Assembly: GCF_009741375.1 (NCBI RefSeq)
Contig: NZ_WOWP01000057.1
Location: 1 to 64,000 of the forward strand
Source of the DNA: Flavobacterium rakeshii
GTDB lineage: Bacteria; Bacteroidota; Bacteroidia; Flavobacteriales; Flavobacteriaceae
Length of the DNA: 64,000 nucleotides
Reading direction: 5' to 3'
Shown: piece after piece, positions 58,340 to 64,000 of the stretch
How positions within the stretch are numbered: position 1 is the stretch's first letter
Layout of the letters: each line of letters begins with the position of its first letter
The notes under the pieces: generated by a model
Told to the model about the DNA's origin: nothing
The model's input: only the letters and a program-made list of their open reading frames with translations
The model's database searches: none
Made by a program: the position numbers and the translations under genes

Positions 58340-58882
58340 TTACTTTGTATATTGCATGTCAAATCTACCTTCTCTTATTTGATGTACTACACCTTGATTA
58401 TCTTGTACATCAAACCAAAAAGTACCAGATACAATTTGGTTTTCAGTATCCAGTTTGGTTATCGTAAGTTCTCCGGTGTGGGTTTGTGAGGTATAATAAT
58501 TATTTATACTATTAGAGTAAAAAGAATAAATGGCTAGTGCATTGCCTGATCTGTTTTCTAATAATTGATAGGTTTCGTTTTGAAATATTTGCAATTCATT
58601 AGTTCCTATAGAAATACCAACTAAATCTCCATCACTGTTTCTTTTATTACCCTGAAGTCCTAAATAATATCCTCCATCAACATATTGATAAACACAATCT
58701 AAAGGATTTATACCTCCACTTGGCAGGAATACTTCTCCATCCAGTAAACAACCAAATGTGTTTTCCCCTGTTTGTGTAGCAGCAGGGAGCAGGTTTACAG
58801 GGTCTTGAGCAGCTTTATCATCGTCATTATTACAAGCAGTGATTCCAGTTAATAAGACTAAAGTCAAAAATAGATACTTCAT
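58340..58882 (-). CDS. Hypothetical lipoprotein, copy B of tandem duplication
   Basis: 180 residues, lipobox ITAC (Cys17), then a NNDDDKAAQDPVNLLP linker and a mostly beta-rich domain ending FDMQYTK. It is nearly identical to the following gene (upstream in transcription) except around residues 108-127. Unknown family; probably an outer-membrane lipoprotein. No -7 consensus was found directly before it, so it may be read through from copy A. Confidence 0.75.
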   Translation of the reverse strand: MKYLFLTLVLLTGITACNNDDDKAAQDPVNLLPAATQTGENTFGCLLDGEVFLPSGGINPLDCVYQYVDGGYYLGLQGNKRNSDGDLVGISIGTNELQIFQNETYQLLENRSGNALAIYSFYSNSINNYYTSQTHTGELTITKLDTENQIVSGTFWFDVQDNQGVVHQIREGRFDMQYTK

Positions 58883-58964: not shown

Positions 58965-59498
58965 TTATCTCACATATTGCATATCAAATCTACCTTCTCG
59001 TATTTGATGTACCACACCTTGGTTGTCTTGTACATCAAACCAAAAAGTACCCGAGACAATCTGGTTTTCAGTATCCAGTTTGGTTATCGTAAGTTCTCCG
59101 GTGTAAGTTTGAGAGGTATAATAATTATTTATTCTATAACCATAAATACCTTGAGCATTACCATTAATATTTTCTAACAACTGATAGGTTTCGTTTTGAA
59201 ATATCTGTAATCCATTAGTTCCTATGGCTATCATTATTAAATCTCCATCACTATTCCTTTTATTACCCTGAAGTCCTAAATAATATCCCCCATCAACATA
59301 TTGATAAACACAATCTAAGGGATTTATACCTCCACTTGGCAGGAATACTTCTCCATCCAGTAAACAACCAAATGTGTTTTCTCCTGTTTGTGTAGCAGCA
59401 GGGAGCAGGCTTACAGGGTCTTGAGCAGCTTTATCATCGTCATTATTACAAGCAGTAACCCCTATTAGTAAGAGTAAGGTGTAAAATAGAGGCTTCAT
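58965..59498 (-). CDS. Hypothetical lipoprotein, copy A of tandem duplication
   Basis: 177 residues, lipobox VTAC (Cys17). Shares with copy B the linker, TQTGENTFGCLLDGEVFLP, LDCVYQYVDGGYYLGLQG and FWFDVQDNQGVVHQIREGRF. The difference lies in the loop after ENINGNAQGIYGYR, three residues shorter than in B. It has a TAATTTTG -7 element, 34 bp upstream, and shares the 5' leader ACCAACTAA with copy B. Function unknown. Confidence 0.75.
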   Translation of the reverse strand: MKPLFYTLLLLIGVTACNNDDDKAAQDPVSLLPAATQTGENTFGCLLDGEVFLPSGGINPLDCVYQYVDGGYYLGLQGNKRNSDGDLIMIAIGTNGLQIFQNETYQLLENINGNAQGIYGYRINNYYTSQTYTGELTITKLDTENQIVSGTFWFDVQDNQGVVHQIREGRFDMQYVR

Positions 59499-59574: not shown

Positions 59575-59686
59575 CAAAAGGTCTCACCTTTTTTAACCTT
59601 TAAAGTGAATACTTACGATAACGAAGTAGAGCCCAACGAGCAAGTAGCTTTTATTAGTGATGGTTCCGCGGGCTCTCGTTTTTTAT
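59575..59686 (+). ncRNA. Candidate structured small RNA
   Basis: Starts just after the TATATTTG element. Contains the hairpin AAAAGGT-CTC-ACCTTTT at its start, then a long-range pair AGAGCCC (59628) with GGGCTCT (59670), followed by CGTTTTTTATT. The layout of promoter, folded body and T-tract end fits a short RNA of about 110 nt. Its GC is higher than that of the neighbourhood. I do not recognise an Rfam family. The open frame from a GTG at 59605 looks less likely, as it runs antisense to the next gene. Confidence 0.35.
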
Positions 59687-60474
59687 TGATAGTACTGACT
59701 ACTGTTCTTTATAAATTTCAGATAGTGTCCAAAAAGATATTTTCTAAGCAATTCCTTACTCTTAGGACTAAGTCTATTTTTGTAAATATTTCTTCGCCTT
59801 ACAGTTTTATGCTTAGGATCAAAATGATCAATCAAAACAGCCACGATAACACCAAATCTTAAAATTACTTGCCTTTGTTCCTTATAATTAACATTTAATA
59901 ATTTTTTCTCTAATTCTCCTATCCATTTCGCCAAGCTACTATCCTCATTTTCCAAAGTTTCGAGAAAATCCTTTAAGGTCATTATTCTAAATTTTTGGTC
60001 TTTGTTAGATATTAAACATTCTCCAATAATTCTTTGAACAGACCTATCCAAAATTCGATGTCTTCGAGATTCGATTGTTTCGATAAATCTTAAAAGTTGG
60101 TTACCTTGTTTTATTTTTGATAAATCTATATATTGACTTTGTAATCTTAAATATTCAAGTTGCCCCCAAAATTGCGCAAATAAATATAAAACATACTTTT
60201 GATTATGTATTGGATTTGAAGATAACGATTTTTTTAAGTTTACAAAGGTTGCAAAATCCTCTTTTGCCAAAGATTCAATTTTACCATATAGTTCGCTTGA
60301 TGCCTTTAAAATAGGATCTAAATTATCATAAAAAATTTTTTTCGCAGCATTTCTGGTTTTAAAATATTGTTTTATATCAGGATAGAAAAATTTAAATCCT
60401 TCCCATATAGTTGCACCAGTTATTGTGGCTATTGTTAATTGTAGTAGATTGTTCATAAAAATGTCTGCTAACAT
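59683..60474 (-). CDS. Membrane-anchored hypothetical protein
   Basis: 263 residues (or 257 if the ATG at 60456 is used). One N-terminal membrane helix (about 8-26, ATITGATIWEGFKFFYP), then a basic, helical cytoplasmic domain with many Lys, Arg, Tyr and Phe: KTRNAAKKIFYDNLDPILKA, FAQFWGQLEYLRLQSQYIDL, RRHRILDRSVQRIIGE. No family recognised. It lies beside the tRNA fragment and could be an accessory gene carried by mobile DNA. Strong terminator upstream in the opposite sense. Confidence 0.7.
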   Translation of the reverse strand: MLADIFMNNLLQLTIATITGATIWEGFKFFYPDIKQYFKTRNAAKKIFYDNLDPILKASSELYGKIESLAKEDFATFVNLKKSLSSNPIHNQKYVLYLFAQFWGQLEYLRLQSQYIDLSKIKQGNQLLRFIETIESRRHRILDRSVQRIIGECLISNKDQKFRIMTLKDFLETLENEDSSLAKWIGELEKKLLNVNYKEQRQVILRFGVIVAVLIDHFDPKHKTVRRRNIYKNRLSPKSKELLRKYLFGHYLKFIKNSSQYYQ

Positions 60475-60657: not shown

Positions 60658-60700
60658 GAAGCGCCAACCCTCTCAATATAAACGACAGGGAAATATATTA

Positions 60701-60731
60701 AAAAAGCTTCAGTTTTCACTGAAGCTTTTTA
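60701..60731 (-). terminator. Terminator next to the tRNA fragment
   Basis: AAAGCTTCAG and CTGAAGCTTT around TTTTCA, followed on both sides by A or T runs. On the minus strand it sits 8 bp beyond the tRNA 3' end, where a tRNA terminator is expected. Confidence 0.85.
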
Positions 60732-60738
60732 AAGGTTG

Positions 60739-60762
60739 TGGGCGATGAGGGATTCGAACTTT
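60739..60762 (-). other. tRNA 3'-end fragment (probable attachment-site remnant)
   Basis: Read on the minus strand it is TTCGAATCCCTCATCGCCCA: T-loop, 3' half of the T-stem and the 3' acceptor strand of a tRNA. The upstream half of the T-stem is GAAAG rather than the GAGGG needed to pair with CCCTC, and no D-arm or anticodon arm precedes it. So only the 3' end is here, as left by integration of a mobile element into a tRNA gene. Confidence 0.65.
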
Positions 60763-60915: not shown

Positions 60916-61734
60916 TTATACTTTAGCACCCTTGTTAAGTTTATTATATTCTGAACTATATGCTAATAGGTATTTTAAGTCTTCTATCATTTTATCATTT
61001 GCAACAATTTTTCTATTCAATACCTCATTGATAAAGTTTGACCATTTAGAATCGGAGTTCATTTCATCAATGATGGTTTTATATTTCTGTGAAAAAACTT
61101 GATTATGCTTATTCAGAACTTTTGAGATTTCAATGATTCTTTTTAACTCTTGATAGATTTTCGGAGCTTTTACCGTCATTTTTTTAATGGAAGAATTAAT
61201 TTGCTCACGAGCTTCGATAATCTTTCTCCTTTTAGCGTTAACTTCAGAATTCAATTGAATTATTTGCCCAACTCCTTCAGCAACGACATCAAATGCTATC
61301 ATCGTAAATTCCGCCTTAAGTTCATTTTTTGAATAACCTTTTTTTTCATCTAATCGAATTAAAGACCCTTCCAGTGAATTCAGAAAGGTTTCACTTACGC
61401 TATCAAGTCCACTCTGAAAGTTGATAGTTAAGTCACCCAAATAAATATGATTTTCAATTTTGTCTACATTACTAACAGCATCTATTACTTTAGCATTTTC
61501 TTTTCCTTTAATTTCTGTAAATTTTGAGATTAGATTTTTAGCCAAAGTCAAGTTTTTCAATGCGTCCTCACGCTCATGCATAAGATATACCAAGGCCTTA
61601 TGTCTTTCTTTATTAATCAAGAGAAAGTCGTTTTGAAATAAGTAAAATCGTTCATTTAACTCATTAAATGACTCTTCTTCTTTTAGCAACTTATTATAGT
61701 TACCACCAGTGATGATATTTTTAAAAAAACTCAT
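60916..61734 (-). CDS. Coiled-coil protein, last gene of the five-gene operon
   Basis: 272 residues, almost wholly helical, with heptad-like Leu/Ile spacing. Segments: FFKNIITGGNYNKLLKEEESF, LYLMHEREDALKN-like LVYLMHEREDALKNLTLAK, IQLNSEVNAKRRKIIEARE. No signal peptide, no membrane helix, no recognised domain. Its ATG overlaps the stop of the TPR gene (ATGA), so translation is coupled. Likely a structural or scaffolding partner; function unknown. Confidence 0.75.
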   Translation of the reverse strand: MSFFKNIITGGNYNKLLKEEESFNELNERFYLFQNDFLLINKERHKALVYLMHEREDALKNLTLAKNLISKFTEIKGKENAKVIDAVSNVDKIENHIYLGDLTINFQSGLDSVSETFLNSLEGSLIRLDEKKGYSKNELKAEFTMIAFDVVAEGVGQIIQLNSEVNAKRRKIIEAREQINSSIKKMTVKAPKIYQELKRIIEISKVLNKHNQVFSQKYKTIIDEMNSDSKWSNFINEVLNRKIVANDKMIEDLKYLLAYSSEYNKLNKGAKV

Positions 61735-63131
61735 ACGTCTAGAATTTGTAAATTTCTCTTTATTTGTTTCGTAGCGGTTTCTAAATCTGTAATTTCTTGT
61801 TGGCGTTTTTCCGGCAAATCTTTAGAAACTGAAAAGCGAACTTTTTGGTTAGAACTATACACTAAATAACTTAAAGAGAGTAAATCAAGACCAAACAAGA
61901 TAACTATAATATATAGTATATATTTGTTTTTGCCGACATCTAAGATATCATTCCAAAGTATATATTTGTAATTATAAAATGATATTATACTATAAATACT
62001 ATTATAAACTAATACACTCAAAAGAATAAAATATAAAGTATACCTAATATATGATTTCACATAGAGATAATGACCCCCGACAATTCCTGTTACAAAAAAA
62101 AACATGTAAGCTTTTTTAGCTTTTCTTCCATCATATTCCTCTGTATTAAAGATTGATATAATTATATAGGTCATAGCAAAAAATATTAGGTAAAGTATAA
62201 ACAACCAATATTTCTGAAAGAAACCTTTATTTTTCCATTTTAACATTGCTGATTTCTTAATATCAGATTCAGCTTTATTAAGCTCTCCCATTTTTTGAAA
62301 TGACAATCCCCTTTTTTCAATTATGTCACTTGCAGATGGAAATAAGCGTATATAAGTTGAATAAAATTTAATAGCTTCATGGTAATTTCCAAGCTGGTAA
62401 TAGCTATCACCTAGTAAACTAAACGTTAGCGGTCTCGAATTTGGATTTTCAATTTTCAGGAAATCTATAACTGCCTCTTTAGGTTTATTAACTTTTAGGT
62501 TAAGGGTACCTCTTTTGTAAAGAATTTCGTCGTTATTTTTATTTGGATTAAGCTGAATATAGGATTGATAATCCTTGATACCTAATTTTTCCTGGTTATT
62601 TAATGTATAAAGGTTTCCACGTTTAAGATAATATGATGAGTTAAGTGGAACAGCGTTTATACAATAAGAATAATCTTCTATAGCTTTATTATAATCGTTT
62701 TTAGAATAGTACTCCGCTCTGAGTTCATGAGATTGTACATCAGAATTATGATAATTCAGATATATGTTTATACTTTCAAGAAAATCATCTTCGTCATCAC
62801 TCGCTAATTTTGCAATAGCAAGTCCCTTATGAGCTAGTGATTTATTTCCCTCGATTTCTATCACTTTATCAAAATCGTCAATACTTTCATCCCATTTTTT
62901 TAACTTAAGCCGAATATTACCTCTTGATAATAATGCAGGAGCTAAGGTATCTGTTATCTCAATTGCCTTTGTTGCGTAATCCTCAGCCTTTTTGTAATCC
63001 TTTGCCAGACTTATAGAGTCTGCTTTTTTCACAAGTGAAGTGTAATTTTTTAATTGCTCTTCATAGCTTAAATCTGACCCGCAATTATACAACAGAGCAG
63101 CCACTATAATTAATAAAATAACTTTTTTCAT
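61731..63131 (-). CDS. TPR lipoprotein with C-terminal TM2-like membrane domain
   Basis: 466 residues. Signal with lipobox LYNC (Cys17), then about seven tetratricopeptide repeats (25-290), for example AEDYATKAIEITDTLAPALL, AIEDYSYCINAVPLNSSYYL and YHEAIKFYSTYIRLFPSASD. A helix at about 303-325 follows, then AKKAYMFFFVTGIVGGHYLY resembling a TM2 pair, two more helices and a charged coiled-coil tail. The N-terminal repeats would be outside the membrane and the tail inside. I know no family with this order. Confidence 0.8.
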   Translation of the reverse strand: MKKVILLIIVAALLYNCGSDLSYEEQLKNYTSLVKKADSISLAKDYKKAEDYATKAIEITDTLAPALLSRGNIRLKLKKWDESIDDFDKVIEIEGNKSLAHKGLAIAKLASDDEDDFLESINIYLNYHNSDVQSHELRAEYYSKNDYNKAIEDYSYCINAVPLNSSYYLKRGNLYTLNNQEKLGIKDYQSYIQLNPNKNNDEILYKRGTLNLKVNKPKEAVIDFLKIENPNSRPLTFSLLGDSYYQLGNYHEAIKFYSTYIRLFPSASDIIEKRGLSFQKMGELNKAESDIKKSAMLKWKNKGFFQKYWLFILYLIFFAMTYIIISIFNTEEYDGRKAKKAYMFFFVTGIVGGHYLYVKSYIRYTLYFILLSVLVYNSIYSIISFYNYKYILWNDILDVGKNKYILYIIVILFGLDLLSLSYLVYSSNQKVRFSVSKDLPEKRQQEITDLETATKQIKRNLQILDV

Positions 63132-63133
63132 AT

Positions 63134-63565
63134 TTAAAAATCCAGTTCTAAGGGAGTATTTTTATCAAGTATAGCTTTTTTAAAGTTATCAAAATCTTCT
63201 AATGGGTTTTTCATAACAAATTCGCTTGCACCTCTTAAGCCTTGTAATATAAGTGCATCATTCCCTTCACGAAGCCCTTTATCAATAACTTCAAAATGCT
63301 TATCAATAATTCTTCCTCGTTCAGAAAAGATTAGATTTAAGACTCCTTGCTTGAGCTTGAATTCCGATAGAATTCGAGCTAATTCATTATTAAGTTCTGC
63401 ATTTCGAATGTCTAGCCTTTTGGATTCTAAATAGATATTTCCAATTTGCATTACTCCATTATTTACGGAGTCTATGCTTTGCTGGTTTATTGAAGCTACT
63501 TCTTTTATGTTTTGTAGAAATGAGTTTACATCCTCAATTTCTTTTTGCGTAACAGCATTACTCAT
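63134..63565 (-). CDS. Helical protein of 143 residues
   Basis: Mainly alpha-helical: NSFLQNIKEVASINQQSIDS, LNNELARILSEFKLKQGVLN, then a conserved-looking FSERGRIIDKHFEVIDKGL, ALILQGLRGASEF and the tail NPLEDFDNFKKAIL. It ends 2 bp before the TPR gene. No signal peptide or membrane helix; family unknown. The second half looks like the small helical domain often next to glycine-zipper peptides, but I cannot name it. Confidence 0.7.
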   Translation of the reverse strand: MSNAVTQKEIEDVNSFLQNIKEVASINQQSIDSVNNGVMQIGNIYLESKRLDIRNAELNNELARILSEFKLKQGVLNLIFSERGRIIDKHFEVIDKGLREGNDALILQGLRGASEFVMKNPLEDFDNFKKAILDKNTPLELDF

Positions 63566-63574
63566 TTTAGGGTG

Positions 63575-63751
63575 CTACTTTTTATTGTCTTTTACAAGTT
63601 TTACAATTCCGTAAATTAATAGACAGGCTCCCCCGCCAATTGCTGCCGGTGCTGCTAATGCTGTTCCTGCTATTGCTGCACCGATAGTACCTACAGCTGC
63701 GCCAACACCTGTAAAAGCAGCTCCGTTTTTTAAATCGTTATTATCGCTCAT
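63575..63751 (-). CDS. 58-residue glycine-zipper membrane peptide
   Basis: Starts MSDNNDLKNGAAFTGVG and has a long Gly/Ala-rich hydrophobic run (about 11-50; with AAVGTIGAAIAGTALAAPAA) followed by CLLIYGIVKLVKDNKK. The spaced small residues make two tightly packed helices or a pore-like hairpin likely, like small bacteriocin or glycine-zipper peptides. It stands 9 bp before the 143-residue gene. A role in membrane insertion or permeabilisation is inferred. Confidence 0.7.
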   Translation of the reverse strand: MSDNNDLKNGAAFTGVGAAVGTIGAAIAGTALAAPAAIGGGACLLIYGIVKLVKDNKK

Positions 63752-63785
63752 GAGTATATAAATTAATTAAATTGAAGTTCTATTT

Positions 63786-64000
63786 TTACAATGTTGGTGA
63801 ATGTTTCCCTTTAACACTTCCTTTAGGATGCCTTATACAGGTTCCTGCGGTTAACGAAGAAATTGAAGATGCCGAAGTACCACAGTATTTACATTGATAT
63901 TTAGACTTCTCTGAACCTTCATAAAGTTTGTGCCTTCCTTTGCCTTCAGGATGACGAATACAGCTGCCAGCAGTAAGAGAATTAATAGAAGATGATTTTG
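63786..64000 (-). CDS. Zinc-module repeat protein, 3' part only
   Basis: Partial: the start is beyond the right edge, the stop is at 63786-63788. At least 71 codons. Two repeats of a zinc-binding unit are visible: the C-terminal one has YQCKYCGTSASSISSLTAGT then CIRHPKG, giving C-x2-C-x14-C-x2-H, and the end of another (SINSLTAGSCIRHPEGKGRH) precedes it, spaced about 33 residues. Repeats of this kind are known in Bacteroidota proteins of unknown function. First visible gene of the operon; the gap to the next is 34 bp. Confidence 0.7.
   Translation of the reverse strand, partial: KSSSINSLTAGSCIRHPEGKGRHKLYEGSEKSKYQCKYCGTSASSISSLTAGTCIRHPKGSVKGKHSPTL

Follow-up and report, generated by a model that had tools for sequence, protein, structure and literature searches.

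A rare, mobile cassette of coiled-coil and membrane protein genes beside a tRNA-Val fragment in Flavobacterium rakeshii, with a possible role in anti-phage defence or envelope stress

The DNA analysed, a stretch of 64,000 nucleotides from F. rakeshii (hereafter the window), ends within contig C47 (81,355 bp) of the 3.9-Mb genome. Five minus-strand open reading frames close to this end encode, in order of transcription, a zinc-repeat protein truncated at the window end (C-terminal 70 aa; 63786..64000), a 58-aa Gly/Ala-rich hydrophobic peptide (63575..63751), a 143-aa helical protein whose C-terminal tail is acidic (..LELDF / IEL; 63134..63565), a 466-aa lipoprotein in which TPR repeats are combined with a multi-TM, TM2-like segment at the C-terminus (61731..63131) and a 272-aa, all-helical coiled-coil protein (60916..61734). 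The genes are separated by gaps of 34, 9 and 2 bp, with the last pair overlapping by 4 bp, and reading frames, lengths and spacing all agreed with the original prediction for this locus. The complete zinc-repeat protein comprises 81 aa, its gene running to contig position 64031 and starting 31 bp beyond the window end. The operon had been taken to start at this gene, which had to be revised: two genes directly upstream on the same strand encode a response regulator of the LytTR type and the 995-aa sensor kinase (together RR-HK), and the zinc gene is therefore not the operon start. Apart from the TPR repeats, no operon protein was named by Pfam, NCBIfam, PADLOC or PHROG, as had been anticipated, and no library names the cassette. 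None of its proteins matched a PADLOC model significantly, the set thus not being assignable by match to any known anti-phage system, nor was any enzyme or recognition domain directed at phage detected in it.

The zinc-repeat protein consists of two ~40-aa repeats of the form C-x2-C-G-x13-C-x2-H-P-x-G-x(1-4)-G-x-H, in each of which three Cys and one or more His are conserved, with hardly an exception, across 88 loci. It was matched by no Pfam or NCBIfam model at or above the respective cut-off. Its profile showed a weak similarity to C2H2 finger chains in the PDB (eukaryotic chains, best E 0.001), with which it shares a C-x2-C motif followed by Cys/His ligands in two repeats; unlike in C2H2 fingers, the third ligand is a Cys and two His follow (C-x2-C-x14-C-x2-H plus a second, invariant H). 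The predicted model was of moderate quality (pLDDT 77.3), and a Foldseek search of the PDB with it returned no match with an E value below 5. In the 466-aa protein, the lipobox LLYNC occupies residues 13–17, and of its predicted description as a TPR/TM2-like lipoprotein the TPR part is strongly supported (Pfam TPR_1, E 6.7e-26). The TM2 label was not upheld, since Pfam TM2 matched neither this protein nor its three sister proteins from other species; the resemblance to the TM2 motif was noted by eye. The structure model of the 272-aa protein was unusable (pLDDT 45.8).

Downstream of the operon, the window contains a 21-nt stretch identical to the 3' terminus of tRNA-Val(tac) (60739..60759, minus strand), interpreted as an attachment-site remnant with its island side towards higher coordinates; intact copies of the tRNA gene are located on contigs C10 and C34. 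Neither ARAGORN nor Rfam found a complete tRNA at the fragment. A terminator-like hairpin followed by a T run (aaaaagcttcagtgaaaactgaagctttttt; 60690..60730, minus strand) was read from the sequence just outside it. The operon thus lies, as originally proposed, beside a tRNA remnant and on its inner side, and other parts of the presumed island contain an integrase gene as well as genes for mobilisation and restriction. A tyrosine integrase (439 aa) is encoded about 0.3 kb from the intact tRNA-Val gene on C34, followed further inward by a DUF1016 nuclease, a ThiF-family protein and a PLD-domain protein. On C47, the region above the fragment comprises the cassette, RR-HK, type I restriction genes (HsdR/HsdM) and a TmtA-family gene, with a MobC-like gene at the contig end. 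The TmtA-family product, a 1480-aa protein encoded beyond the window between the type I restriction genes (locus L002, 13856-18298), was identified by PADLOC with an E value of 1.5e-281. We infer that the first ~11.5 kb of C34 and the region from 60.8 to 81.4 kb of C47 represent opposite ends of a single island. The tRNA-Val 3' end and the integrase, MobC-like, type I restriction and TmtA-family genes fit a mobilisable island that carries the operon.

The check for co-occurrence in other genomes retrieved four of the five genes together. The genes for the zinc protein, the 143-aa protein, the TM2-like lipoprotein and the 272-aa protein recur in unchanged order in three other species, F. aquidurense (L054), F. 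xueshanense (L066) and F. frigoris (L056), in two further contexts. For the three non-zinc genes, the homologues at these loci were matched with phmmer E values of about 7e-21 to 3e-70, and the proteins are 31–54% identical across the four species. Leaving aside the extra 58-aa reading frame of F. rakeshii, the core genes are separated in all four species by 2–52 bp or overlap shortly. The cassette follows RR-HK and precedes uvrA in F. aquidurense; in F. frigoris and F. xueshanense it is flanked by a TerD/VWA/phosphatase/kinase/TerC cluster and by type I restriction genes, no RR-HK is present within 9 kb upstream, and the membrane protein is a 232-aa form without TPR repeats. Comparison of F. 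xueshanense with F. frigoris yielded dN/dS values of 0.10 (zinc), 0.16 (143-aa), 0.21 (TM2-like) and 0.15 (272-aa), and the four core genes are under purifying selection. The 272-aa family is rare in the genus, with one other clear match (L117) among 199 Flavobacterium genomes; the proteins encoded there are identical to those at the F. frigoris PS1 locus (L056). Matches to the 272-aa protein in two loci from a search of the phylum (L012 and L013) were treated as chance coiled-coil matches. The cassette is real, conserved, rare, mobile and located near known defence genes. No paper on it, on PDC-M09 or on TmtA in connection with phage was found in the literature. The 58-aa reading frame is considered coding, because its synonymous codon choice matches that of the island genes, a level reached by none of 5000 uniform recodings. 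The peptide is nevertheless absent from all three sister operons, which removes it from the core set in which it had been included.

The RR-HK pair contains Reg_prop, His_kinase (PF06580), Response_reg and LytTR domains, as do the two-component regulator propeller/LytTR systems of Bacteroidota, and is the sole close copy in the genome. It differs from these systems in being tied to a zinc-finger gene with membrane cargo, frequently and not obligatorily. RR-HK is positioned directly upstream of the zinc gene in several Flavobacterium loci, including that of F. rakeshii and L054, and with one intervening gene in Algoriphagus loci; among the closest kinase orthologues sampled, one of four has the zinc gene downstream. 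Because the kinase is also found without the zinc gene, the link is frequent rather than obligatory. A search for LytTR half-sites upstream of the zinc gene found none that fitted the consensus tried.

When an alignment of the zinc protein was scanned over 84,980 species genomes, 236 relatives from several phyla were confirmed, and the loci of 80 were fetched. The partners of the zinc gene vary and include DUF262, AAA, WYL, PDDEXK_4 (PDC-S26) and EcsC (PDC-S29/S30) proteins as well as dynamin-like GTPases. Immediate zinc neighbours matched 183 PADLOC families in 77 proteins, far more than the 29 in 61 proteins for distant controls from the same loci, although the 183 are not independent matches because PADLOC families are redundant and overlapping. 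Residence on the same islands, and not a common function, may account for the defence genes nearby. Viral contigs contained no relatives of the zinc or the 143-aa protein. In F. piscis (L043) and Flavobacterium sp. SLB02 (L102), EcsC-type genes (PDC-S29/PDC-S30 in PADLOC) take the same slot as the cassette, directly downstream of RR-HK and the zinc gene, but they encode single EcsC-domain proteins without coiled-coil partners and are not homologous to it.

Outside the cassette, homologues of the 143-aa protein are mostly encoded directly beside another coiled-coil gene, which is of the PDC-M09A type in four of six loci. In these four (L010, L011, L027 and L028), the homologue directly follows a ~300-aa, glycine-zipper-containing coiled coil, the gene for which is interrupted by a frame break in L010. 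The PDC-M09A assignment was made by PADLOC match in L010 and L011 and by homology to these two in L027 and L028. Their surroundings contain restriction genes, SIR2-family and toxin-antitoxin genes, or MotA/OmpA-like genes. In a Phocaeicola locus (L100), genes for the zinc protein, a 72-aa protein, a 275-aa coiled coil and a 143-like protein are arranged in a row; the Priestia homologue (L004) has no coiled-coil neighbour among the reading frames of its locus. By score, a PDC-M09A profile search in Bacteroidota gave a single convincing match (L016). Both settings pair the 143-aa protein or its homologue with a long coiled coil in the vicinity of defence genes; the ~140-aa partner next to the coiled-coil gene is a feature of PDC-M09A-type loci that was found here and is not part of the PADLOC definition. 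The cassette differs in adding a (TPR-)TM2-like lipoprotein and a zinc-finger protein, and its 272-aa protein has no glycine-zipper segment. The 272-aa protein was not accepted as a PDC-M09A member, given a PADLOC E value of 0.31 and an hhalign probability of 14.5% against the M09A-type alignment. Likewise, a PDC-M09A protein split into the 58-aa peptide and the 272-aa protein was rejected on the basis of a BLASTP E value of 0.93 for the peptide against M09A, the three sister operons without the peptide and the missing M09A match of the 272-aa family. A MotA-like and OmpA-like gene pair beside an AAA ATPase gene and a PDC-M09A/143-like pair was observed at L014 (6816-9352); by eye, it resembles Zorya-AB.

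The cassette is a new variant among the coiled-coil/membrane modules of defence islands, and the company it keeps suggests anti-phage or envelope-stress work. The best explanation builds on the observed gene order, purifying selection, separate contexts and island features and adds an inferred function: the chances appear about even that the operon is a rare mobile accessory cassette, carried on a tRNA-Val island, that acts at the inner membrane as a module against phage or envelope stress. An anti-phage role would follow through guilt by association, from the defence-rich neighbours of the zinc gene, the upstream TmtA-family gene and the 143-aa/PDC-M09A pairs. In such a module, the kinase/LytTR pair would turn the operon on, the lipoprotein would expose its TPR domain to the periplasm and anchor the assembly by its inner-membrane segments, and the 143- and 272-aa proteins would form oligomers on the cytoplasmic side of the membrane. 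The zinc-finger protein could act as an adaptor shared by many unrelated defence cassettes, and the likely output would be altered membrane integrity in infected or stressed cells. Of the original interpretation, this reading retains the co-occurrence, the absence of family names and the island position, and it drops the 58-aa peptide as a core member, the start at the zinc gene and contact-dependent inhibition. A wider generalisation is rather doubtful, namely that the locus represents a previously undescribed, sensor-controlled defence architecture of Bacteroidota, in which a fixed front end, made up of the LytTR/propeller-kinase pair and the two-finger zinc protein that the loci share, is combined with interchangeable membrane-acting cargos (the coiled-coil/TM2-like cassette, EcsC proteins or GTPases).

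The same genes could instead maintain the envelope under stress in the manner of PspA or Ter proteins, with the kinase sensing membrane damage, the coiled coils coating and stabilising the inner membrane and no direct anti-phage role. This somewhat improbable alternative agrees with a lipoprotein that combines periplasmic TPR repeats and TM segments, with its long helical partners, with the position of the operon after TerD/TerC/VWA genes in L056 and L066 and with the LytTR regulator and sensor kinase that precede the zinc gene in F. rakeshii, L054 and L031. The sporadic occurrence of the cassette in the genus, however, suits an accessory rather than a housekeeping function, and its neighbours are restriction and TmtA genes. 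It is less probable still that an insertion hotspot behind a resident RR-HK pair or zinc gene collected accessory genes independent of one another, the zinc gene being a passenger and the genes not forming a single system. The many downstream partners of the zinc gene (EcsC, dynamin-like GTPases, DUF262, PDDEXK) and the different contents of the RR-HK/uvrA spot in L033, L043, L054 and L102 would be expected from a hotspot, but four genes keep their order and tight spacing in four species, against the prediction of random gathering. A toxin/immunity or contact-dependent inhibition set with the Gly/Ala peptide as membrane toxin, to which the hydrophobic nature and coding signature of the peptide would lend themselves, is very improbable: the sister operons do without it, and no secretion-system, polymorphic-toxin or immunity family was found in the reading frames scanned, which leaves the proposed contact-dependent system without support. 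If the reading as a mobile accessory module is confirmed, a function would be provided for a widely distributed zinc-finger family with defence-rich neighbours and for the ~143-aa family that accompanies a PADLOC candidate, and two-component envelope sensing would be linked to mobile defence cargo.

At the margins of the presumed island, a 263-aa protein is encoded just past the tRNA fragment (59683-60474, minus strand), with a Pfam REase-ARP match (E 1.4e-4) that falls under the curated cut-off. Two tandem, near-identical lipoproteins of ~180 aa (CNNDDDKAAQDPV...; 58340-58882 and 58965-59498, minus strand) are located just outside the island fragment and apparently represent a recent duplication. 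Near the intact tRNA-Val gene and the integrase on C34, the ThiF-family protein is accompanied by 855-aa and 129-aa neighbours (L115, 4664-8327), with which it possibly forms a ubiquitin-like conjugation set.
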